DNA from: a virus
Length of the DNA stretch: 23,202 nt
Direction: 5' to 3' (one strand)
IMG/VR virus record: IMGVR_UViG_3300022602_000445
Coordinates: 1 to 23,202 of that record
Made by a program: the position numbers and the translations under genes. The stretch's first letter is position 1; every line of letters starts with the position of its first letter. Below the pieces are notes generated by a model. The model was not told where the DNA came from, searched no databases, and saw only the letters and a list, made by a program, of their open reading frames with translations. Positions 11,720 through 21,963 of this stretch are shown here, one piece after another.

Positions 11720-13156
11720 TTAGACTGCATATGGGTTTTCAGCTCTTTTATTGTAGTCGTCATCGATATAGTCATTTGACTGTTGTACAAAATGATCGAT
11801 CACAATAATGTTCGCATCCCTTAGGTAGCGTAGTGCTTGAGTCAGTGCGTCCACATAGTCGTCATGCCGACCTAATGGAAAACTACAGATCTCTGACAGG
11901 AACGGCTGTATCCACGTTCTGGCCTGTCCTGGATGCTCAGTCGACTCCGGCAAATACAGTAACCCTTTCTCGATCATCGGGGCAATAATGTTCAGTCTGG
12001 TTGCTTTATCAGCATTTCCTGGGTTATATCCTCTGATCGGAATTCGGGTCTTCTGAAGGTCCTGAATGAGTGCTATACCACTTGATTTGTTCTCTACAAG
12101 GACTAAGTCCACCTTCTTACCTGACCCAAACTCGTCCGGATCTCCATAGATCTCCTCAAACTCTTCTTTTAGCTTAGACCGTAAGTCTGGGTACAAGAGC
12201 CGCTCTGACCAACAGTCAATCAGCATCACACGATTCCCCTTATCCTCTGATGGTCGAAACACGCCTAACACTACACATGCGGTGGGATCGTTGATCTGCT
12301 TATCGGACGCTGCACAGTCGTAGGACTGAATCACATATGAAAACTCTGGAAACGGTCGGTCTGCATCCCACAGCTCAAACCAGCTACGCTTCACTAAGCC
12401 GCTTTCTTCCGGATCTAGTATCTCTGCATGTATCTCTTGGCGGCCGAGGCTTGTTCCTTCATACTGCATAATCTGATTCTGAAAGTTCGGTGCTAGGTTA
12501 TGCAAGTTTGAGTACGTAGAAGCTGTGGTCACATGCACGTCCTCACCATCTCTATCGTTTAACTCTACTATTTTCGGTACAGGCTTCGGAGTAGTAGTGC
12601 ACACCATACGTGGCGTTTTACCGAGTCGAAGACTGAACTGTATCATGTCCCATGCCTCATCCAGATAGTCCCAAGCGGCAAGCTCGTCAGCCCATACATG
12701 GTGCCACTGAGGACCACGGAAACGGCTAGGCTCGGATGCTGCAATTCCTTTGATTAAAGACCCATTCTTAAGAGTAAGCTCATGGAGCGATATTCCGTAG
12801 TTCTGAATAATCTCAGGCGGAGTCACATTTAACAAACCGGAGTCTCCGTTAAAACACACGTCACGTATATCACCTGAAGTCGGTGCTGACACAAGAATAC
12901 GACTACCAGGCTCGCTCCAAGCTTTCCACCATGTCCACTCTGCTGCTAATCGTGTCTTACCTGCTCCTCGGCCTGCAAGGAGCAACCACACTGACCAATC
13001 GGTCGGCGGTTCTATCTGGTGTGGTAGAGCAATCGTTAACCACTTCAATCGGGCTTTAAATGCTGCTCTCCACTCTGGCGACATTTGACTAAGCTCTTTA
13101 TCGTGCTTCTGAATTCGCTCTGCCACTTTTTGAATCTGTTGTTCGGTAAGAGGCAT
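11720..13156 (-). CDS. terL: terminase large subunit (DNA-packaging ATPase/nuclease)
   Basis: A 478-residue packaging motor that docks on the portal, pumps DNA and cuts it. The ATPase half has Walker A 'GRGAGKT' (62-68), Walker B 'VWADE' (154-158) and coupling motif 'TTTPKP' (187-192). The RNase-H-like nuclease half has acidic residues at D280 ('QSYDCAASD'), E355 ('LVLVENKSSG') and the D432/D433 pair ('GRHDDYVDALTQALRYL'). All key residues are present and the length is normal. The start has no Shine-Dalgarno; an extended -10 (TGCTATAAT) lies just upstream, so it may be read from a leaderless mRNA. terS lies upstream on the same strand, separated by a regulatory array and a small gene. Confidence 0.95.
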   Translation of the reverse strand: MPLTEQQIQKVAERIQKHDKELSQMSPEWRAAFKARLKWLTIALPHQIEPPTDWSVWLLLAGRGAGKTRLAAEWTWWKAWSEPGSRILVSAPTSGDIRDVCFNGDSGLLNVTPPEIIQNYGISLHELTLKNGSLIKGIAASEPSRFRGPQWHHVWADELAAWDYLDEAWDMIQFSLRLGKTPRMVCTTTPKPVPKIVELNDRDGEDVHVTTASTYSNLHNLAPNFQNQIMQYEGTSLGRQEIHAEILDPEESGLVKRSWFELWDADRPFPEFSYVIQSYDCAASDKQINDPTACVVLGVFRPSEDKGNRVMLIDCWSERLLYPDLRSKLKEEFEEIYGDPDEFGSGKKVDLVLVENKSSGIALIQDLQKTRIPIRGYNPGNADKATRLNIIAPMIEKGLLYLPESTEHPGQARTWIQPFLSEICSFPLGRHDDYVDALTQALRYLRDANIIVIDHFVQQSNDYIDDDYNKRAENPYAV

Positions 13157-13171
13157 GATGTGATTATAGCA
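13157..13171 (-). promoter_or_regulatory. extended -10 promoter immediately before terL
   Basis: Read leftwards, TGCTATAAT (13163-13171) is a perfect extended -10 element. Its expected start point falls about at the terL ATG (13156), so the mRNA would be leaderless, consistent with the absence of a ribosome site. The region behind it is occupied by short CTGCAG-containing repeats instead of a recognisable -35. Confidence 0.5.
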
Positions 13172-13381: not shown

Positions 13382-13411
13382 AAGATCTAAGGCCCGTAGG
13401 CCTTAGATCTT
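13382..13411. terminator. 13-bp perfect hairpin, terminator-like
   Basis: AAGATCTAAGGCC (13382-13394) and GGCCTTAGATCTT (13399-13411) form a perfect 13-bp stem with a CGTA loop. It lies 10 bases after the stop codon of the small leftward gene, where a terminator is expected, and would insulate that gene's transcript from terL. Neither side has a clear U-tract, so rho-independent function is uncertain; it may block RNA decay instead. Confidence 0.5.
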
Positions 13412-13421
13412 GGTTTAAATA

Positions 13422-13610
13422 TTATAGAAACGTAATATAAATATAATCTTTAACTTCTACTTCGCATACTTCGCTATCTTGATCAAGAGATTTAAGATAT
13501 TCTAAAATCGATTTTTTCTCGATATTTACGTAAATTTCACTATTCGAGATTTGAGCTTTGAGTTTAGATGGGAAGCATTCGATGTTTTTAATTGCGAAAA
13601 TCGTTTTCAT
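13422..13610 (-). CDS. small unknown protein under the palindrome array
   Basis: A 62-residue protein 'MKTIFAIKNIECFPSKLKAQ...EVEVKDYIYITFL', with predicted alternating beta and helix and no membrane segment. It resembles no family I recognise. An AAAGG site lies 9 bases before the ATG, behind a leader carrying TTCTTAATTCTAAAC (13626-13640 on the opposite strand) and a TATAAT at 13679-13684. This is the same leader and promoter plan as the rightward early genes. It is therefore probably an early gene placed among late genes, with the palindrome array upstream as its control region. It is followed by a strong hairpin. Confidence 0.65.
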   Translation of the reverse strand: MKTIFAIKNIECFPSKLKAQISNSEIYVNIEKKSILEYLKSLDQDSEVCEVEVKDYIYITFL

Positions 13611-13671: not shown

Positions 13672-13684
13672 AAGTACTATTATA
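13672..13684 (-). promoter_or_regulatory. promoter of the small 62-residue gene
   Basis: Read leftwards, TATAAT (13679-13684) gives an expected start near 13672 and a leader of about 60 bases. The leader begins with a TAGGTAA/TTACCTA stem-loop and contains the shared TTCTTAATTCTAAAC motif. The first palindrome (13731-13745) is centred about 66 bases upstream of this start. There is no good -35. Confidence 0.55.
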
Positions 13685-13730: not shown

Positions 13731-13942
13731 TTTCACATCGTGAAATAACTCATTTTCCTATGTACAAAGTGAAAATTTCCTGATATATACGCGCAACTTT
13801 CATCATGTGAAAGTGCATGTCACATAGTGAAATTTCATCATGTAAAAGTGAGTTTTATATTGTGAAATTTCAGCATATAAAAGCTCATTTCATCATGTGA
13901 AAGTGCATGTCACTATGTGAAAGCTCATTTCACTATGTGAAA
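13731..13942. promoter_or_regulatory. array of 15-bp TTTCAC-N3-GTGAAA palindromes
   Basis: Nine copies are listed with starts at 13731, 13798, 13818, 13833, 13853, 13868, 13888, 13908 and 13928. A tenth, degenerate copy is near 13753. The consensus is TTTCAYNATGTGAAA; the last copy, TTTCACTATGTGAAA, has perfect 6-bp arms. From 13798 on, start-to-start spacing is 20, 15, 20, 15, 20, 20, 20. Copies therefore either abut or are separated by exactly five bases, usually GTGCA or GCTCA. Such phasing indicates cooperative binding of a dimeric protein along one face of the DNA. Identical palindromes occur before the rightward genes. It could be a regulatory super-operator, a partition or centromere-like site, or replication iterons. 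Confidence 0.9.
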
Positions 13943-14094: not shown

Positions 14095-14534
14095 TGGCCG
14101 ATCTGAAGATCATTCTGAATGTCGTTCAGAATCTCCTGTGCGATGGAGTGTGAAGTCTGAACCTGAATGGCTCCACCATTGTTGCCCGTAAGCTCGATTT
14201 TGTTCCGTTCTGAGTACTTTTGAGGAAATCTAGCGGCCATAATTCGATTATATACACCGCCATTAAGTCTTGAAGACCCTGGGTTTTCGACTATGTGCGA
14301 AATACCTAGATCTTCCCAATACGCCAACTCGAGCTCTTTAGCTGTGCGCAAGGCCAACAAAAATTCTTGGTGCTGCTCGGCCCAGTTATCTAGCGTTCCC
14401 CAATTCAACTTCAATTTTGCAGCAATTTGTTCTTTAGACATACCTTCTGAACCCATCTGAATAACTTGTTGACAATATTCAGGCTTATATTTAGTAGGTC
14501 GACCAATTTTCTTTTCAATTACGTCATATTGCAT
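14070..14534 (-). CDS. terS: terminase small subunit
   Basis: A 154-residue protein that recognises the phage packaging site and recruits TerL. I choose ATG 14534, five codons inside the longest frame, because AAGGA lies 8 bases upstream. The N-terminus 'GRPTKYKPEYCQQVIQMGSEGMSKEQIAAKLKLNWGTLDNWAEQHQEFLLALRTAKE' is the helix-turn-helix DNA-binding domain typical of TerS (HTH about 29-55). The remainder includes the 'YWEDLGISH' and 'NRIMAARFPQKYSERNKIELTG' segments found in this family. It overlaps the end of the homing-endonuclease gene by 16 bases. It is unusually separated from terL by about 0.9 kb holding an operator array and another gene. Confidence 0.88.
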   Translation of the reverse strand: MQYDVIEKKIGRPTKYKPEYCQQVIQMGSEGMSKEQIAAKLKLNWGTLDNWAEQHQEFLLALRTAKELELAYWEDLGISHIVENPGSSRLNGGVYNRIMAARFPQKYSERNKIELTGNNGGAIQVQTSHSIAQEILNDIQNDLQIGHSQTGSST

Positions 14535-15091
14535 GTTGTTTCCTTCCAAATGGAGTCTATGAGTTTATTTAATCTTGATGCTTTTATACCAAATGAACGA
14601 GCTTTAATGTGTTCAGGTGATAGTTTACGACCTTTTCTAACTGCCGATAATGCCGCAATGTGTTCAGGCGTTTGAGGAATTCCTTTTTTACCTTTGGAAA
14701 TATTTGCAGCATGTTTAGCTGATTTAGGTCTGCCTTTTAGTTTAATGCTGTTTAATCGACCGTTTCGTTGTCGAGTTTCTAAAGGAAGACCGCATAAAGG
14801 AGAATCTTTTGTCGTTTCTATAGCTTGATTCGCGTATTTATTACTTTTCCAATATTGAAATGGAAGAGAATTAAGCCATTTCTTTGCTTCTGTTTCTGAG
14901 TCGAACCATTGTTGAAAAATAACCTCGACGTTGTCGCGATGATGGCCTCCGTGCTTAGCGCAATGTGCGATCCAATATCTACCACTGCCACAATACAAAT
15001 TCATCTCAGTCATCACAGTTTGGCCTATGTACATCTTATCTGATGTTTTGTTTTTCATAATGTAATACCAGCGTGGTCGCCAATCGGTCAT
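14519..15091 (-). CDS. GIY-YIG homing endonuclease with NUMOD3-like repeats
   Basis: A 190-residue protein, taking ATG 15091, which has AAGGAGAG 6 bases upstream. The N-terminal nuclease has 'WYYIM' (8-12) and 'MYIGQT' (20-25) as the GIY...YIG pair, then 'YCGSGRYW' with the expected Arg (R38) and a Glu in 'SETEAKKW' (66-72). The C-terminal part has two basic NUMOD3-like DNA-binding elements: 'GRPKSAKHAANISKGKKG' (120-137) and 'TPEHIAALSAVRKGRKLSPEHIKA' (141-164). Free-standing members spread by cutting DNA of related phages near their own site. Its position beside and overlapping terS fits such an insertion. No split gene or intron is seen. Confidence 0.88.
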   Translation of the reverse strand: MTDWRPRWYYIMKNKTSDKMYIGQTVMTEMNLYCGSGRYWIAHCAKHGGHHRDNVEVIFQQWFDSETEAKKWLNSLPFQYWKSNKYANQAIETTKDSPLCGLPLETRQRNGRLNSIKLKGRPKSAKHAANISKGKKGIPQTPEHIAALSAVRKGRKLSPEHIKARSFGIKASRLNKLIDSIWKETTCNMT

Positions 15092-15113
15092 AATTTCTCT
15101 CCTTAGTGGGTGT

Positions 15114-15126
15114 GAAATTGATTGTA
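15114..15126 (-). promoter_or_regulatory. candidate promoter for endonuclease-terS
   Basis: Read leftwards, TGTTACAAT (with -10 hexamer TACAAT at 15121-15126) is an extended -10 lying 30-35 bases before the endonuclease start. There is no strong -35. It could drive leftward transcription of the endonuclease and terS, divergent from the rightward promoter near 15559. The TTTCAC palindrome is absent here. Confidence 0.4.
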
Positions 15127-15341
15127 ACACAAAGTGCTAAAAACAGGCACTATCGGTAAAAGTTACATCAGGATACAAAATTACACCTAGTCAAATTCAT
15201 ATATATAAAAATAAATTTAATAATAAAATTAAAAAAAAGTAACTCAGTAACTCAGTAACAGACCAACAGCAGCTTACCTCTCCCAAGTTACAAAAAGTTA
15301 CAAGAAATCTTCAATTCTGTTTACTTTTCAGTAACCTATTT

Positions 15342-15375
15342 GCTAAACTGTGGACTATGCTAAACTGTAGTATGT
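15342..15375. repeat. imperfect 17-bp tandem repeat
   Basis: GCTAAACTGTGGACTAT (15342-15358) is followed directly by GCTAAACTGTAGTATGT (15359-15375); the first ten bases are identical. It lies inside the candidate origin region, between GTTAC copies. Confidence 0.7.
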
Positions 15376-15384
15376 TCTGGTTAC

Positions 15385-15417
15385 AAAAGTTACAAAATCT
15401 CATTTTTTGTAACTTTT
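15385..15417. repeat. 13-bp inverted repeat of the GTTAC element
   Basis: AAAAGTTACAAAA (15385-15397) and TTTTGTAACTTTT (15405-15417) are exact inverted copies around a seven-base centre. They place two GTTAC elements head to head. It could form a cruciform or be a paired protein site in the candidate origin. Confidence 0.75.
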
Positions 15418-15445
15418 TCACAGCCAATTTTGTAACTCATTTTCT

Positions 15446-15484
15446 ACCCCATCTGTAACTTAGTTTCTAGGTTGCAGATGGGGT
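15446..15484. other. long stable hairpin before the first rightward promoter
   Basis: ACCCCATCTG (15446-15455) pairs exactly with CAGATGGGGT (15475-15484). As RNA the stem continues inward with two G-U pairs to give about 17 bp around a GTTTC loop. No U-tract follows on either strand, so it is not an ordinary terminator. It is GC-richer than its surroundings and stands between the GTTAC repeats and the operator pair. A structured RNA, primer or origin hairpin is possible. Confidence 0.6.
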
Positions 15485-15496
15485 TCCAATCTACCA

Positions 15497-15571
15497 TTTC
15501 ATAGTGTGAAAGACCACCTACTATTTCACTATGTGAAATCAACGATTCTAATCTATGGTATAATAATTAGG
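15497..15571 (+). promoter_or_regulatory. early promoter A with two palindromic operators
   Basis: Two operator copies, TTTCATAGTGTGAAA (15497-15511) and the perfect TTTCACTATGTGAAA (15524-15538), precede an extended -10, TGGTATAAT (hexamer 15559-15564). The expected start is near 15571, so the proximal operator is centred at about -40 and runs into the -35 position, which is unmatched (AAATCA). The 54-base leader holds TTCTTAATTCTTAAC (15591-15605). It drives the 15625-16898 gene set. Confidence 0.75.
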
Positions 15572-15624
15572 TAGTATATTTATTATAGATTTCTTAATTC
15601 TTAACTCAAAACAAGGAGTAAATC

Positions 15625-15969
15625 ATGCAAAAAACAAAAGATCAGCTCATAGAAGAAATTCGTGAGAACTTGTATATGAATCTCGGTGACGATTCAGGCG
15701 CAGTAGCTGATGCTCTATTAGATAGTCATTATCCAAACTTAGAATTAATGCCTATCGAAGATGTCCAACGTGCTTACAACTTCGAGTTTAATCTCGATGA
15801 CACTAAAGAGTTCATCATCAGTCCTCAGATTGTGTACGTATTAACCGATGACCTTAGTCATATGTCAATTCATGCAACACTCAATGCAGCAGAAAAAGCA
15901 CAACATGAACTAGCAGAAATGGATTCAGAATCAACCTCTTGGATTACAGAAATGGAGGTAGCAGCATGA
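15625..15969 (+). CDS. unknown acidic protein, first gene of the rightward early unit
   Basis: A 114-residue acidic protein 'MQKTKDQLIEEIRENLYMNLGDDSGAVADALLDSHYPNLELMPIEDV...', with predicted helices at the N-terminus and a short C-terminal helix. No known domain is recognised. AAGGAG lies 8 bases before the ATG. The first gene behind promoter A, it shares a 4-base ATGA overlap with the next gene and so heads a coupled operon of four genes. Position suggests an early host-takeover or regulatory protein, with no direct evidence. Confidence 0.75.
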   Translation: MQKTKDQLIEEIRENLYMNLGDDSGAVADALLDSHYPNLELMPIEDVQRAYNFEFNLDDTKEFIISPQIVYVLTDDLSHMSIHATLNAAEKAQHELAEMDSESTSWITEMEVAA

Positions 15970-16166
15970 AATTCACCAGACTTTACAAAAATCGGTTTTA
16001 CTACTATGAATGGACACCAGGCCATTTCTACGTCTATGACACCAAGGATCCTAGCGGCAAGCCTGTTGGCTACCCTAAAAACCCTGAAATTCCACTTTCA
16101 TGCCCACTTTTATCTACTGCACATTCTCTGTGCGATATGATCCTTAGAAAGGAGTCTCAAGTATGA
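15966..16166 (+). CDS. small unknown early protein
   Basis: A 66-residue protein starting at ATG 15966, which overlaps the previous stop (ATGA) and has GGAGGT 7 bases upstream. A longer frame from 15939 starts inside the upstream gene without such a site. The sequence is aromatic-rich ('YKNRFYYYEWTPGHFYVYD'), with a 'PSGKPVGYPKNPEIPLSCP' middle and a C-terminal helix. No family recognised. Its stop overlaps the next start by 4 bases. Confidence 0.7.
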   Translation: MKFTRLYKNRFYYYEWTPGHFYVYDTKDPSGKPVGYPKNPEIPLSCPLLSTAHSLCDMILRKESQV

Positions 16167-16486
16167 AAATCACTCAGTTTCATGATTCTATTCCTCATTC
16201 TAAATTTAAACCTCGTTATAAGACTTCAAGGTTGTACTTCGATTATAAAGGCGAGACATTAATGGATGACTTACAGAACCGTCGTTTCAGACCCGCTGAT
16301 CAACTTAAAGTCTTACTTCCAGAGATCTTCAAGCATTACAATATCAACCCTAAACATGCCAAATGGTCACAGTATGCCGGTTGTAGTTGCCCTTGTAGTC
16401 CCGGTTTTATCCTCTATGGCGTTTATGGTAAGAACTATGCAGTCACAGTAGAAAAGGAGTTACCACATGAATCAAGAACAAATTAA
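16163..16486 (+). CDS. conserved small phage protein with CxCxC motif
   Basis: A 107-residue protein. 'HAKWSQYAGCSCPCSPGFIL' (about residues 65-84) has three closely spaced cysteines and the 'AGCSCPCSPGF' pattern I have seen in uncharacterised phage proteins. These cysteines could bind a metal (inference). AAGGAG lies 9 bases before ATG 16163, which overlaps the preceding stop (ATGA). It overlaps the next gene by 20 bases. Function unknown. Confidence 0.75.
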   Translation: MKITQFHDSIPHSKFKPRYKTSRLYFDYKGETLMDDLQNRRFRPADQLKVLLPEIFKHYNINPKHAKWSQYAGCSCPCSPGFILYGVYGKNYAVTVEKELPHESRTN

Positions 16487-16898
16487 ATCAATTCAACGTG
16501 GTGGTTTTCCGTACAGATGCAGCTATGATGCAACAGGGAAGAGAACAGATTTTCACTGGAAAGTGTATGTTCGTGACTTTCATCCTACCAAGAAGGACTC
16601 CATTACGCCCGCTGACGAGATGTTACATCTGGTTCAGTCTTTCAGAAACAAGAAAGATGCTCAAGAATTTTTTGACTTATACTTAGCCCCTCTAATCGAG
16701 AAAGCAATCTATGACACGTTTAAAGACGATGAAGAATACCAAAGAGTCTATCGACATTTTCCTCGATTTATTAATGCGAGACTATATCGAGCAACAGAGC
16801 TGCTTAGTTTTGTAGATTTTTCAGATTTAAGTCCTCTTCATTCTTTAGCAGTTCAGGAATATCGTAACTTTTGTCAACAACTTAAACAAAATCAATAA
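16467..16898 (+). CDS. unknown early protein, last gene of unit A
   Basis: A 143-residue, mostly helical, soluble protein with AAGGAG 8 bases before its ATG. N-terminal 'RGGFPYRCSYDATGKRTDFHWKVYVRDF' looks beta-rich; residues 40-143 look helical and contain many aromatics. No family recognised. It ends 16 bases before a long inverted repeat that encloses the next promoter's operator. Confidence 0.7.
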   Translation: MNQEQIKSIQRGGFPYRCSYDATGKRTDFHWKVYVRDFHPTKKDSITPADEMLHLVQSFRNKKDAQEFFDLYLAPLIEKAIYDTFKDDEEYQRVYRHFPRFINARLYRATELLSFVDFSDLSPLHSLAVQEYRNFCQQLKQNQ

Positions 16899-16914
16899 CT
16901 TACAGATGCCAGAC

Positions 16915-16983
16915 TTTGTACTTTGTTTCAGCTATTTCACATAGTGGTAAAACAAAGTACAAAAATGTGGTATAATGTATCAT
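16915..16983 (+). promoter_or_regulatory. early promoter B with operator inside a 14-bp inverted repeat
   Basis: The operator TTTCACATAGTGGTA (16935-16949; right arm degenerate) is centred near -41 from the expected start (about 16983) of the extended -10 TGGTATAAT (hexamer 16971-16976). It is enclosed by TTTGTACTTTGTTT (16915-16928) and its exact complement AAACAAAGTACAAA (16950-16963). The leader contains TTCTTAATTCTTAAC (17007-17021). The inverted repeat may be a second protein site or an mRNA hairpin ending unit A. Confidence 0.7.
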
Positions 16984-17043
16984 GTAGTAAAAATGTTGTA
17001 GTTGTATTCTTAATTCTTAACACACTTAACAAGGAGCTTTATC

Positions 17044-17385
17044 ATGGAATTATCACCTATTAACACAGAAATGACAATGCCGGTTACAACCGCTGCTACT
17101 ATTACTCAGTCTTCACTTGCTGATTTGTTTCACTCAATGTCTTCAATTATGCAACAAATGTCTTACAAAATCAGTCAATTAGAAGCTAAGCTCGAAGCTC
17201 AGGCGCCTATAAGCATCGAAAATACGTTATCAGACTTTTTAACGAACACTGAATTCGAAGATAGAGTCAACGAGCTTGTCGAGCACCATATGCGTTACGA
17301 GTTTGATATCGATAACCATGTCGATATTGCAGATGTTGTACGTGATACACTTAACACTAGTCTCACCATTAGCTTCGATATTTAA
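17044..17385 (+). CDS. unknown early protein with central coiled coil
   Basis: A 113-residue acidic protein. It has a Thr/Ala-rich N-terminus, a predicted coiled coil at about 26-55 ('LADLFHSMSSIMQQMSYKISQLEAKLEAQ') and a helical acidic C-terminus with 'VNELVEHHMRYEFDIDNHVDIADVV'. AAGGAG lies 9 bases before the ATG, behind promoter B. It probably oligomerises (inference). The next gene starts two bases after its stop. No known family. Confidence 0.7.
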   Translation: MELSPINTEMTMPVTTAATITQSSLADLFHSMSSIMQQMSYKISQLEAKLEAQAPISIENTLSDFLTNTEFEDRVNELVEHHMRYEFDIDNHVDIADVVRDTLNTSLTISFDI

Positions 17386-17387
17386 TT

Positions 17388-17555
17388 ATGCCCTCAGCTC
17401 TTAAATATAAGACGCTAACTAAACCTAAGCACGTCTTCGTCCTCATCGACGAAGGCGATGTGCTTAAAGTTTACGAAAGCAAAATAGATGCTCAGAACGA
17501 TGCAATCAAGTATGAGCTTACCGATTATTTTATACAAGAAACGGAGTTTAAATAA
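17388..17555 (+). CDS. 55-residue unknown protein
   Basis: A short frame ATG 17388 to TAA 17555 encodes 55 residues, 'MPSALKYKTLTKPKHVFVLI...'. The fold 'HVFVLIDEGDVLKVYESKIDAQNDAIKYEL' looks like a small beta-hairpin plus helix. It starts two bases after the previous stop and its stop shares one base with the next ATG (TAATG), so it is likely translated by coupling; its own ribosome site is weak. No family recognised. Confidence 0.65.
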   Translation: MPSALKYKTLTKPKHVFVLIDEGDVLKVYESKIDAQNDAIKYELTDYFIQETEFK

Positions 17556-17893
17556 TGCAAAAACCCTATGTTACACACAACGATCAACCCATTAGTATTC
17601 GTGGCACACATGGCCTAGCCCGTTTGTCCAATCTTTCATACGCCCGAATCGTCGAGATGTTCGGTGAGCCTTGCGATGATTTCGATGATTTTAAGTCCGA
17701 TGCAGAGTGGACAATTCTATTTCCAGATGGTGAAGTAGCTACCATTTATAACTGGAAAAATGGTAAAAACTATTGTGGGCCCGATGCTCCACCTGTAGAA
17801 GAAATACGTGAATGGAACGTCGGTGGCTATACAACCGATGTCGTCCTACGTCTTCACCAACTTTTAATGAAAGAACCTATACATTATGCATAG
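17555..17893 (+). CDS. conserved uncharacterised phage protein
   Basis: A 112-residue acidic protein. The segment 'LSYARIVEMFGEPCDDFDDFKSDAEWTILFPDGEVATIYNWKNGKNYCG' (about residues 27-75) follows a pattern I recognise from many uncharacterised small phage proteins (LSYx.LVexFGeP...K.daEW...F.DG..atIYdwKn). ACGGAG is the ribosome site. It is the last gene of unit B and is followed by a rho-independent terminator. Function unknown. Confidence 0.78.
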   Translation: MQKPYVTHNDQPISIRGTHGLARLSNLSYARIVEMFGEPCDDFDDFKSDAEWTILFPDGEVATIYNWKNGKNYCGPDAPPVEEIREWNVGGYTTDVVLRLHQLLMKEPIHYA

Positions 17894-17933
17894 CTCATTG
17901 TAAACTATGTTAAAGTAATACACACTTACTTAT

Positions 17934-17958
17934 CCCCTCCCTAAAAGAGGGGTTTTTT
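17934..17958 (+). terminator. rho-independent terminator ending unit B
   Basis: CCCCTC (17934-17939) and GAGGGG (17947-17952) form the stem and are followed by TTTTTT (17953-17958). It is 40 bases after the stop of the preceding gene. A clear rightward terminator. Confidence 0.9.
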
Positions 17959-18023
17959 AAACTTCAAAATTGGTACAGAGTCTATGAGACATATACAACA
18001 AACACCAACTCACTCGCACAAAC

Positions 18024-18054
18024 AAAAAAATCCCCAATGTATGGCATTGGGGAT
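18024..18054 (-). terminator. leftward-facing terminator
   Basis: ATCCCCAATG (18030-18039) and CATTGGGGAT (18045-18054) form a perfect 10-bp stem with a five-base loop. The T-run lies on the left (as A at 18024-18030 on the given strand), so it stops transcription moving leftwards. No leftward gene lies to its right in this window, so it would block antisense transcripts from the replication gene region. Confidence 0.75.
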
Positions 18055-18088
18055 CTAAGCACTTATATTAACTAAGGTAGTCCAATCG

Positions 18089-18104
18089 TTCACTTGTGAA
18101 GGAG
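18089..18104 (+). promoter_or_regulatory. TTCAC-TT-GTGAA palindrome overlapping the primase ribosome site
   Basis: TTCACTTGTGAA (18089-18100) has the same arms as the operator but a two-base centre, and it runs into GAAGGAG (18098-18104), the ribosome site for the primase-helicase gene. It may be an altered operator or chance. A weak TATATT lies at 18064-18069. No standard promoter or TTCTTAATTCTTAAC leader is present here. Confidence 0.35.
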
Positions 18105-18111
18105 TCATTGA

Positions 18112-20157
18112 ATGAGTTTCAATGAAAAAACAATTAAACCAGAAACATTATATCACACATTTCTAAAAGATAGACAGTTTAATGACCAAGATGTACAGTC
18201 ATTAGGTCTAGAACACCTCGACCCACAACAAACCTCACAATTGATGGGGTTCACAGTCTATAGTGCATCGATCAAGATTCCGTACTTTGACATACACGGT
18301 CAGCCTACAGACTTTAATCGAGTTCGTCTTCTGAACCCGATCGGAAAGATGAAGTACTGCCAACCGCGTCAGTCTGGCTCTCACATCTATTTTCCGAAAA
18401 ACCCGTTATGGCCCTCAGCATTGACCAACTTACAAATTCCGTTGATCATTACAGAGGGGGAGTTTAAAGCACATGCCATTACCAAAGCGATTGTAGCAGA
18501 GAATCTGCAGTACATCTGTTTAGCGGTTCCAGGGGTATCATCATGGACAGACAAATCAGGCCTTCCCATGCACAAAGATCTAATGTCCATTCTCTATGAG
18601 AAGTCATTATCAGCCCGCGATGTGTACATTCTATATGACTATGACGGTAAAACAGATGATGGTGAGCCGAATGAGCAAGTGGCACTTGAAGAGAACAAGC
18701 TAGCTATTACACTTGCAGGATTAGGTGCTAAGGTCCACCTTTGTAGAATTGGTCGGTTCAAACCCGTAAAAGGACAGAAATATGCAATAGACGACCACCT
18801 ATTGATTGGTGGAACACTGTCTGAAGTATTGATGTCATGCATAGAGCCGACAATGATGAAAAACAGTGAAGAGTATCGTTTATACACGGCTCGTACACAG
18901 TGGGCGATCTATGATGGACAATGGATTCGGCTCAGTGACGGTAAACAGTTTAATGGGCAAAGAATAAGAATAGAGTTGGCGAACCATTCATGGATTCGGC
19001 CAGCTGCCAATGGTAGAACGACCACAGTAAAACTAACTGATGCATACCCTGCATGGTCAAAGCGTTTGAACCTACGAGGTATGGGCATGTACCCAAAACA
19101 TCAAGGGCTTCGTATTACGCCGGACGGATACTATAACTTTATGAAAGCATGGAAATATGAGCCATTAGAAGGCACGCCTACTCCATGGCTTGAGTGGTGC
19201 TCGTACTTTTTTAAGGATGCTCCAGAGTTTGAAGACTTTTTTCATAATTGGATAGCACAGATCATACAAAAACCGTGGGAGCGTAACAATACCACAATTC
19301 AGATCATCAGCCCTAAGCAAGGTATTGGTAAGTCATTTAGTATTGGTTGGATCGCAGAGATGATGGGTGATATGGCACTCTCTATTGGTCCTGATAGACT
19401 CTTTGAGAAGTTTAACCAACACGTACTGAACCGTGTGTTGATCACAGTGGACGAGCCAAGTACTGATAATGCAAGGCATGCAGATGAGCTGAAGAACCTC
19501 ATCACAAGTGATACACTCACATTAGAAGCAAAGAACCAAGATGCCATTTTCATTACGAACTATGTGAACTATGCATTTACCACGAACCACGCCAAAGTGA
19601 CCACAGTGAATGAAGGGGCACGCCGTGAAGCAATCTATATGCCACACTCTTTAGACCCTTCAGTATGTTCTGAGTTAATCTATAAGGTAAAAGAATGGTG
19701 TGAAAACCAAAATGGCTTTGAGATCATGATGCACTTTTACAATACACGTGATCTTTCTAATTTCGATGCAAAAGCACCTGCCCCAATGTCAGATCATAAA
19801 CAAGAAGTGATACAAGCCAGTAAGTCTGCATGGTCACAATTTGCACAAGAGGTGTGGGACTGGGTTGAGAACGAGCTTGATGGCTCTGCTGCAATCAGTA
19901 AAGGCATGATGAATGTATTGATTCGGCATTTTAGGTATGAGGACTCACGTATTACTGCACACTCAATAAATAACTCATTCAAAGAGTTGTGTTTCAGTCA
20001 ACAGAATAAGATGATCAAAGACGATAGAGGCCAATGTCTTCGATGCTTATTACTTACACGAACAGCAGAGGATACGCATAAAAGCTCTGGCTATAGAATT
20101 CTTCTACAAAAAACGAATGATGCAATCGAGAAATTAATAACAAAAACTTCGTATTAG
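18112..20157 (+). CDS. TOPRIM primase / superfamily 3 helicase replication protein
   Basis: A 681-residue replication protein. The N-terminal primase-like half has the TOPRIM signature 'LIITEGEFKA' (111-120, catalytic Glu) and 'VYILYDYDGK' (171-180, DxD). The C-terminal half is an SF3-type helicase ATPase: Walker A 'PKQGIGKS' (401-408), Walker B 'LITVDE' (443-448), and 'YAFTTNHAKVTTVNEGARREAIYM' (487-510) with the sensor Asn and an Arg finger region. It would open the origin, unwind DNA and prime it. AAGGAG lies 9 bases before the ATG. It stands alone between terminators and promoter C. An origin about 2.6 kb upstream is suggested. No DNA polymerase gene is in the window. Confidence 0.9.
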   Translation: MSFNEKTIKPETLYHTFLKDRQFNDQDVQSLGLEHLDPQQTSQLMGFTVYSASIKIPYFDIHGQPTDFNRVRLLNPIGKMKYCQPRQSGSHIYFPKNPLWPSALTNLQIPLIITEGEFKAHAITKAIVAENLQYICLAVPGVSSWTDKSGLPMHKDLMSILYEKSLSARDVYILYDYDGKTDDGEPNEQVALEENKLAITLAGLGAKVHLCRIGRFKPVKGQKYAIDDHLLIGGTLSEVLMSCIEPTMMKNSEEYRLYTARTQWAIYDGQWIRLSDGKQFNGQRIRIELANHSWIRPAANGRTTTVKLTDAYPAWSKRLNLRGMGMYPKHQGLRITPDGYYNFMKAWKYEPLEGTPTPWLEWCSYFFKDAPEFEDFFHNWIAQIIQKPWERNNTTIQIISPKQGIGKSFSIGWIAEMMGDMALSIGPDRLFEKFNQHVLNRVLITVDEPSTDNARHADELKNLITSDTLTLEAKNQDAIFITNYVNYAFTTNHAKVTTVNEGARREAIYMPHSLDPSVCSELIYKVKEWCENQNGFEIMMHFYNTRDLSNFDAKAPAPMSDHKQEVIQASKSAWSQFAQEVWDWVENELDGSAAISKGMMNVLIRHFRYEDSRITAHSINNSFKELCFSQQNKMIKDDRGQCLRCLLLTRTAEDTHKSSGYRILLQKTNDAIEKLITKTSY

Positions 20158-20160
20158 CTA

Positions 20161-20228
20161 TTTCACATGATGAAATCAAATAATTCAAAAGTGTAGTATA
20201 ATAAACTTAGTAATATATTTTATTACTA
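20161..20228 (+). promoter_or_regulatory. early promoter C with operator and 5' stem-loop
   Basis: The operator TTTCACATGATGAAA (20161-20175) starts four bases after the primase stop. It is centred at about -41 from the expected start (20209) of TATAAT (20197-20202). The -35 position is unmatched (AATCAA). The mRNA would begin with a TAGTAATA/TATTACTA stem-loop (20208-20228), which could protect its 5' end. A variant of the shared leader motif, ATCTTAAATACTTAAC, is at 20236-20251. Confidence 0.72.
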
Positions 20229-20268
20229 TTTTTAAATCTTAAATACTTAACTTTAAAGGAGCTTTATT

Positions 20269-21210
20269 ATGGCACATGAAATCGCCAAAACAGTAAACGG
20301 TAAAGATGCAATTGCCTATGTAGGTGATACACCATGGCATGGTCTTGGTCAACAACTCACACCTAATTCACCATTAGAAGTATGGGCAATCGAAGCAGGT
20401 CTAGATTTTCAGTTACAAACTACTCCTATTTGGTATTCACCATTTAGTGATGGTCAAAACATGAAATCATATACCGGTAAGCGTGTTATTCTTCGGAATG
20501 ATACACACGATGCACTAGGTATTGTGTCAACACGTTACAAAATAGTACAACCTATCGAGGTTCTAGAGTTTTTTCGTGACATTATCGGTTCCTCTGCTCA
20601 GTTGGAAACAGCAGGCGTACTTCGTGGTGGTGCACATTACTGGGCACTCGCTAAAATGGAAGGTGAGTTTAATTTAGCAGGCGATAAAGTAAACCAATAC
20701 TTACTCCTTGCATCATCAGCCGATGGTTCACTTGCCACACAAGCACGTCTTACTACAGTCCGTGTTGTATGCAACAACACAATGCAGATTGCACAAAGTA
20801 ATGGTCAAGCAGTGAAAGTACGCCATAGCTCTATCTTCGATCCATCAGAAGTAAAAGTAAAGTTAGGCGAGATTAATCAAAACTTTAAAGCATTTCAAAC
20901 CACCGCCGAGACACTTGCTCGTATTAAGTTATCAAGCCAACAGGCTTCTAAGTTATTTGTAAGTATACTCGGTGGCTCAGAAGATAAACCAAGTCGCCAA
21001 GCGGCACGTGCCTTACAGTTATTCGAAGGTAGTGGCATAGGTAGTGATCTGGAATCTGCAAAAGGTACTGGTTGGGGTGCACTAAATGCAGTCACACAAT
21101 TAGTTGATTGGGAAAATGCCCGAACAGATGATGCACGTATCCGTAGTGCATGGTTTGGTTATGGCGCCAATATCAAGCAACAAACTCTCGATGCATTAGT
21201 CACAATGTAA
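20269..21210 (+). CDS. DUF932 phage/plasmid-like protein
   Basis: A 313-residue member of the DUF932 (phage/plasmid-like TIGR03299) family. The signature 'TPWHGLG' (21-27) is followed by 'LGIVSTRYKIVQPIEVLEFF' (83-102), 'GGAHYWALAKM' (120-130), 'NQYLLLASSADGS' (142-154) and 'TTVRVVCNNTMQIA' (162-175). Length is typical. The family is common on phages and plasmids and its molecular role is not established; links to DNA metabolism or recombination are only guesses. AAAGGAG precedes the ATG. It has its own promoter with operator and is followed by a 15-bp hairpin, so it forms a single-gene unit. Confidence 0.88.
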   Translation: MAHEIAKTVNGKDAIAYVGDTPWHGLGQQLTPNSPLEVWAIEAGLDFQLQTTPIWYSPFSDGQNMKSYTGKRVILRNDTHDALGIVSTRYKIVQPIEVLEFFRDIIGSSAQLETAGVLRGGAHYWALAKMEGEFNLAGDKVNQYLLLASSADGSLATQARLTTVRVVCNNTMQIAQSNGQAVKVRHSSIFDPSEVKVKLGEINQNFKAFQTTAETLARIKLSSQQASKLFVSILGGSEDKPSRQAARALQLFEGSGIGSDLESAKGTGWGALNAVTQLVDWENARTDDARIRSAWFGYGANIKQQTLDALVTM

Positions 21211-21212
21211 TC

Positions 21213-21277
21213 TTTCACTATGTGATAAAGCACAAAAAGCTTTATCACATAGTACTTTCTATGATATAATGTTCATA
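21213..21277 (+). promoter_or_regulatory. early promoter D with operators in a 15-bp hairpin
   Basis: TTTCACTATGTGATA (21213-21227) and a degenerate partner TATCACATAGTACTT (21243-21257) face each other. ACTATGTGATAAAGC (21217-21231) and GCTTTATCACATAGT (21239-21253) are exact inverted copies around ACAAAAA. TGATATAAT (hexamer 21265-21270) is an extended -10; the expected start is about 21277. The partner palindrome covers the -35. The leader motif TTCTTAATACTCAAC is at 21285-21299. The hairpin may also end the DUF932 transcript, but no U-tract follows. Confidence 0.68.
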
Positions 21278-21597: not shown

Positions 21598-21682
21598 AAC
21601 AACATGGGCCGATTGGTTTGTAGCAACCGTTTTCGGAATTTTTTATGCAGTACTTTTAGCGAGTTTTTGTAAATTATTATGA
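21590..21682 (+). CDS. 30-residue single-membrane-segment mini-protein
   Basis: ATG 21590 to TGA 21682 encodes 30 residues, 'MNKTTWADWFVATVFGIFYA...'. One hydrophobic segment (about 9-27, F-V-A-T-V-F-G-I-F-Y-A-V-L-L-A-S) spans a membrane's width. GAGAAGGA lies upstream at normal spacing. The start overlaps the preceding gene by 8 bases and the stop overlaps the next start (ATGA), so it is well placed for coupled translation. It could be an inner-membrane effector; no homolog is recognised. Confidence 0.55.
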   Translation: MNKTTWADWFVATVFGIFYAVLLASFCKLL

Positions 21683-21963
21683 CACCTATTCAATGGCACA
21701 GAAAAAGAACTAAAGCAAATATGCCGCATGTGGCAGAGTCAATGCTTGATTTAATGAATGAACACGGACCTGTTCGAATTACCGAGTTTATCGAAACAGT
21801 AGAAAAAGATGAACTAGGTTCAAGAGCACATTTGTACTTTAATTTAAACTGGCTTCGTGAACATGGCTATGTAAAAGCCACGAGCCCTGTAAATAATCTT
21901 CGTGTAAAAGAAGTAAGCATTACAGCTAAAGGTTTACGTTACTTAGAGAATGATCATGGATAG
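21679..21963 (+). CDS. winged-helix DNA-binding protein
   Basis: A 94-residue protein with the layout of a winged helix: helix 1 'HVAESMLDLMNEHGPV' (residues 14-29), helix 2 'ITEFIETVE' (31-39), recognition helix 'SRAHLYFNLNWLREHGYV' (46-63), and beta-wing 'VNNLRVKEVSITAKGLRYLEN' (69-91). The final 'ITAKGLRYLE' is typical of MarR/PadR-like or phage winged-helix regulators. It is a candidate for the protein that binds the TTTCAC-N3-GTGAAA palindromes, though nothing links them directly. The start overlaps the mini-gene stop (ATGA); the ribosome site is weak. Confidence 0.75.
   Translation: MTPIQWHRKRTKANMPHVAESMLDLMNEHGPVRITEFIETVEKDELGSRAHLYFNLNWLREHGYVKATSPVNNLRVKEVSITAKGLRYLENDHG

Follow-up and report, generated by a model that had tools for sequence, protein, structure and literature searches.

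Promoter architecture of the kind described here is already known, whereas the site, the phage family, the candidate regulator and an associated palindrome array are new. In phage lambda, CI bound at OR2 activates PRM, and its palindromic operator, with the half-sites TATCAC..GTGATA, is centred near -42. At class II promoters of CRP such as galP1, the activator site is centred at -40.5 or -41.5 and overlaps the -35 element (PMC4693257). At promoter Pm of phage Mu, which is used by host sigma70 RNA polymerase, a Mor dimer sits on an inverted repeat (centre -43.5) in place of the -35 element, and promoters of the form TRTGn-TATAAT can fire without a -35 element or any activator (PMC4390567). KorA/TrfB of IncP plasmids binds a site (GTTTAGCTAAAC) that overlaps the -10 element and represses transcription (PMC2680271).

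The window analysed here is an entire virus record of 23.2 kb. Its minus strand holds the structural genes (terminase, portal and capsid), and the plus strand from 15625 carries a second cluster with small proteins, a primase/helicase-like protein with DUF3854 and DUF5906 (18112-20157, +), a DUF932 protein (20269-21210, +) and a 94-aa winged-helix protein with a MarR/PadR-like fold (21679-21963, +). A homing-endonuclease-like ORF upstream of the terminase small subunit (14519-15130, -) is present in some relatives only, and about ten GTAAC/GTTAC repeats at 15237-15470, between promoter A and the minus-strand genes, are possibly origin iterons. Relatives, including genomes of 56-58 kb, were retrieved with the primase, DUF932, terminase and other proteins. 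The portal protein relates the family to Caulobacter phage RW, Roseobacter phages CRP-901/902 and Pelagibacter phages HTVC023P/027P; searching phage records with the nucleotide sequence of the region gave no match, and promoters of the kind described below are absent from MW202545, a relative whose portal is 57% identical.

An earlier note on this DNA had proposed that one palindrome is common to several scattered promoters, and TTTCACnnnGTGAAA is present at every place it named. The note had also suggested a motif search beyond those promoters. With at most one mismatch, 11 copies were found in the window where 0.08 would be expected (mean of 60 first-order Markov resamples, maximum 2), and with at most three mismatches 37 copies against 18.4 +/- 4.3 by chance. 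The note had overlooked a minus-strand promoter, here called E, and the candidate regulators.

At promoters A, B and C the palindrome had been placed at -40 to -41 from the start predicted by a perfect TATAAT, and these coordinates, -10 boxes and spacings are correct. Promoter A combines its proximal palindrome TTTCACTATGTGAAA (15524-15538, centre -40) with TGG-TATAAT (hexamer at 15559-15564, +; predicted start 15571), promoter B combines TTTCACATAGTGGTA (16935-16949, centre -41) with TGG-TATAAT (16971-16976, +; predicted start 16983), and promoter C, whose transcript begins with the DUF932 gene, combines TTTCACATGATGAAA (20161-20175, centre -41) with TAG-TATAAT (20197-20202, +; predicted start 20209). 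The hexamers at a 17-nt spacer read AAATCA, TAAAAC and AATCAA as reported, leaving the -35 unmatched, and the TGn extension claimed for three of four promoters is seen at A, B and D and missing from C. Promoter A has an additional distal palindrome TTTCATAGTGTGAAA with one mismatch (15497-15511, centre -67), found at the same position in G001, G002, L004, L007 and L008. The palindrome of promoter B sits inside a 14-bp perfect inverted repeat, TTTGTACTTTGTTT (16915-16928/16950-16963), which is kept in G002 and L019 and may be a second regulator site.

The same layout recurs across the phage family. After all intergenic TATAATs of the family loci had been collected and those more than 80% identical dropped, 177 non-redundant instances were left, and 15 of them have the palindrome centred at -41 (14) or -40 (1). 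Other centres in this set are -50/-51 (n=5), -57/-58 (n=2), -62 (n=1), -66/-67 (n=2) and -74 to -76 (n=4), and between -34 and +40, the usual range of repressors, family promoters show isolated palindrome matches only. Thirteen of the 15 promoters in the -41 group carry TGn. The class II geometry, with a site near -41.5 overlapping a poor or absent -35, is found at A, B and C and at these 15 family promoters: the best TTGACA match in the -41 group scores 2.93 versus 2.65 in shuffles, compared with 3.42 for promoters with the palindrome further upstream, which carry a -35-like TTATCA, TTGTCA, TTTACT or TGTACT. When 12 diverged -41 sites are compared in pairs, identity averages 0.34 in the upstream flank and 0.41 in the downstream flank, with values of 0.83 for the palindrome, 0.50 for the spacer and 0.93 for positions -17 to -7. 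The flanks have thus diverged to near background while the palindrome and -10 have been kept, which points to constraint on the spacing; with flanks this diverged, recent duplication of promoters was rejected as the only reason for the constant spacing. Exact matches to the composite pattern of palindrome and extended -10 comprise 20 unique family sites, of which 18 have a gap of 16 nt and two a gap of 15 nt; this count omits two matches with a 17-nt gap, which are consistent with L201 and L205, contigs outside the family. A common regulon with activator geometry is well supported by these sequence comparisons for A, B, C and their counterparts in relatives.

Promoter D has a different layout. 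The earlier note had treated it as a fourth promoter of the same kind, which is contradicted by its palindrome TTTCACTATGTGATA (21213-21227), centred at -57 rather than near -41, and by its own -35-like TTATCA, separated by a 17-nt spacer from TATAAT (core promoter 21242-21270, +; predicted start 21277). The second palindrome placed at D (about 21240-21254) is the right, mirror arm of a 15-bp perfect inverted repeat (21217-21253, arms 21217-21231 and 21239-21253). In L010 the arms co-vary, with a T-to-C change on the left matched by A-to-G on the right, and in L019 the repeat carries a T-rich tail and resembles a terminator hairpin; no such repeat was found downstream of DUF932 in L006, L011-L013, L015, L017 or L018. 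The repeat is probably a hairpin closing the DUF932 transcript, and the preferred reading of D is a single operator together with this hairpin. In view of the changes seen in relatives, a pair of operators was judged less likely.

Promoter E (TATAAT at 13679-13684, -; predicted start 13672) lies at the edge of the array, ahead of a 62-aa ORF (13422-13610, -) that it is predicted to drive. Its nearest palindrome, TTTCACATCGTGAAA (13731-13745), is centred at -66, and the interval 13731-13942 holds ten matches with at most three mismatches: this one, a weak one at 13760 and the array of eight further copies (13798-13942), some of them degenerate, which start 15 or 20 nt apart. A palindrome lies upstream of the 62-aa ORF in all 25 contigs found to contain it, representing 17 distinct upstream sequences. 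The nearest site in these is at -41 (n=3), -51 (n=5), -61 (n=3), -66 to -68 (n=4) or -75 (n=1), the truncated contig L197 being the one in which the -10 is not reliably assignable. Among the homologues of promoter E, different relatives thus show the palindrome at -41, -51 or -61, in steps of one helical turn, and it lies further upstream where a -35-like element is present. Promoter E is a fifth member of the palindrome set and is conserved alongside the 62-aa gene wherever that gene occurs. The 62-aa protein itself is highly conserved and its distribution follows the palindrome regulon; directly after its ORF, a 13-bp hairpin with a cUACGg tetraloop (13384-13413, minus strand) is a likely terminator before terL.

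The note had further extended the regulon to the array, and this is supported: the same palindrome makes up the array, and in relatives the locus consists of two divergent promoters whose palindrome is centred at -41 or -50/-51. G012 and G010 have nothing more there than such a pair, with two or three palindromes, and in G012 each of the two promoters has its palindrome at -41. The window-type array therefore looks like a promoter's operator region in which the palindrome has increased in copy number, and this number differs between relatives. Its copies may serve as extra binding sites that compete for, or concentrate, the same protein near the terminase genes.

Each of the closest described systems shares some of these features and lacks others. 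As at Mu Pm, an inverted repeat stands in place of the -35 element, and use by host sigma70 RNA polymerase is proposed here; unlike Pm, the site is a 15-bp palindrome at -40/-41, it serves at least three extended -10 promoters and an array, and no Mor-family protein was found (no PF08765 match at E<=1 in seven family records, possibly incomplete, whereas control genomes matched). CRP class II promoters have a site centre near -41 that overlaps the -35 position in the same way, but their site sequence is unrelated, CRP is a global regulator of the host whereas the present set is phage-specific, and no CRP-family protein scored above cut-off in the family genomes. The lambda operator is a palindrome of comparable size and half-site placed near -42, yet no XRE/HTH_3 protein was found (no PF01381 match at E<=1 in the seven family records, against matches in all control genomes), and no evidence of lysogeny was seen. 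KorA/TrfB resembles the present case in that one palindrome serves several scattered promoters, and these phages encode a KorA-like protein; it differs in that the site here lies at -41 and has another sequence, a separate GTTTACTnnnnAGTAAAC dyad being more KorA-like. No sigma-factor homologue scored above cut-off in the family genomes, and a search for single-subunit phage RNA polymerase (PF00940) gave no match in the family and none in control genomes either, which makes it uninformative.

The leading candidate for the palindrome regulator is the winged-helix protein at 21679-21963. Its predicted structure (pLDDT 83) has the winged-helix fold of MarR/PadR regulators, with MarR as the best PDB structure match (E 5e-4) and the centromere protein AspA among the other fold matches; a PadR Pfam match was below cut-off, and a PDB sequence search with the winged-helix alignment gave no match. 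The residues GSRAH at the start of the recognition helix are invariant in ten aligned sequences, and the protein is encoded in all eight multi-palindrome genomes compared. In G019, G025 and G027, which keep a single palindrome at about -67, it is 36-38% identical and has a different recognition helix. This assignment, made from fold and co-occurrence, is a lead rather than a result, because co-occurrence is confounded by shared ancestry. A second candidate is a KorA-like protein (G001, 11870-12109), with KorA and ArdK as best PDB matches (E about 0.1) and homologues matching Pfam KORA (PF16509) at E 0.08-0.18, below cut-off; it occurs in both multi- and single-palindrome groups and therefore tracks the regulon less well than the winged-helix protein. 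Neither protein had a match in named phage records. The GTTTACTnnnnAGTAAAC dyad, whose spacing varies, resembles the KorA operator and has one exact copy per genome in G001 (L112, 2502-2519), G010, G014, G025 and G027; a KorA-like protein is encoded by most of these phages. In G001 the dyad overlaps a promoter, TTTACT-17-TGGTATAAT, that lies immediately upstream of a gene resembling pyrimidine-dimer glycosylases.

We consider it somewhat probable that a dimeric protein encoded by the phage uses the palindrome as its operator and switches promoters on by activating host sigma70 RNA polymerase in class II fashion. The dimer, possibly the winged-helix protein, would bind at -40/-41, take the place of the missing -35 and help the polymerase to use the extended -10, and A-C would be early-to-middle promoters. 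An activator touching RNA polymerase is favoured because of the strict -40/-41 position, the lost -35, the helical-turn steps at promoter E and the near absence of sites in core promoters. Against it, the positions -57, -66/-67 and -75 are out of helical phase with -41, and a common helical periodicity of all sites was accordingly rejected, with -41, -51 and -61 alone fitting. Moreover, activation need not be required, because promoters with TRTGn-TATAAT are able to work with neither a -35 nor an activator. This last point also feeds the main rival, an unlikely one, in which A-C would be strong promoters with an extended -10, active from the moment of infection until a phage protein made from them later binds at -41 and shuts them off, the array being extra operators or a sink. 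A perfect TRTGG-TATAAT should need no help to be active, and a lytic phage must have promoters working before its own proteins are made. MarR/PadR-like and KorA-like proteins are repressors for the most part, and at D an arm of the inverted repeat overlaps the -35. Repression fits less well with the positions of the roughly 30 non-redundant sites, nearly all of them at or upstream of -40 with isolated matches only in core promoters, or with a spacing fixed to within 1 bp although the flanks diverge freely, and in the -41 group no -35 is left to occlude.

The binding protein could instead be a host regulator recruited by the phage, as class II promoters such as galP1 rely on a host factor, but the distribution of the composite element makes this distinctly improbable. 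When TTTCAYnnnRTGRWA-N15-17-TRTGnTATAAT was scanned against 2.9 million viral contigs and 84,980 prokaryote species genomes, it was found in 31 viral stretches, 28 of which carry genes of this phage family and three of which look like chance matches. The bacterial and archaeal genomes yielded one match each in nine unrelated species; a regulon of this layout was seen in none of the sequenced species genomes, among which the phage host may be absent. Near-confinement to the family argues for a phage-encoded regulator. Least probable of all is a chiefly structural role, with the array acting like a centromere or origin and its binding protein also touching promoters. A cluster of about ten copies whose number varies between strains would suit such a role, as would the AspA match of the winged-helix protein; against this, the corresponding locus of G012 and G010 is just a divergent promoter pair, so the promoter role is independent of the array. 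A more specific version of class II activation, in which the winged-helix protein is the dedicated activator of early-to-middle promoters and replicating arrays titrate it, turning the programme off before packaging, is a doubtful proposition, slightly less so than the host regulator.

The regulatory logic predicted here, from sequence alone, is that of a family of uncultured freshwater phages whose genomes yielded no phage sigma factor. Confirmation of the regulator would add a class II activator of phage origin with no relation to Mor, and the idea that operator titration serves as a timer in lytic infection could be tested directly on the array.

Transcripts of the -41 promoters (15571, 16983 and 20209 onward) tend to start near GTAGTA, and the leaders of A, B, D and E have in common a TTCTTAATTCTTAAC-like stretch; a 5' hairpin could form in some of them. 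At terL, a TATAAT at 13156-13168 (-) puts the predicted start on the A of its ATG, a possible leaderless late promoter; a repeated CTGCAG precedes this TATAAT, and its 6-nt spacing is the same in L006.
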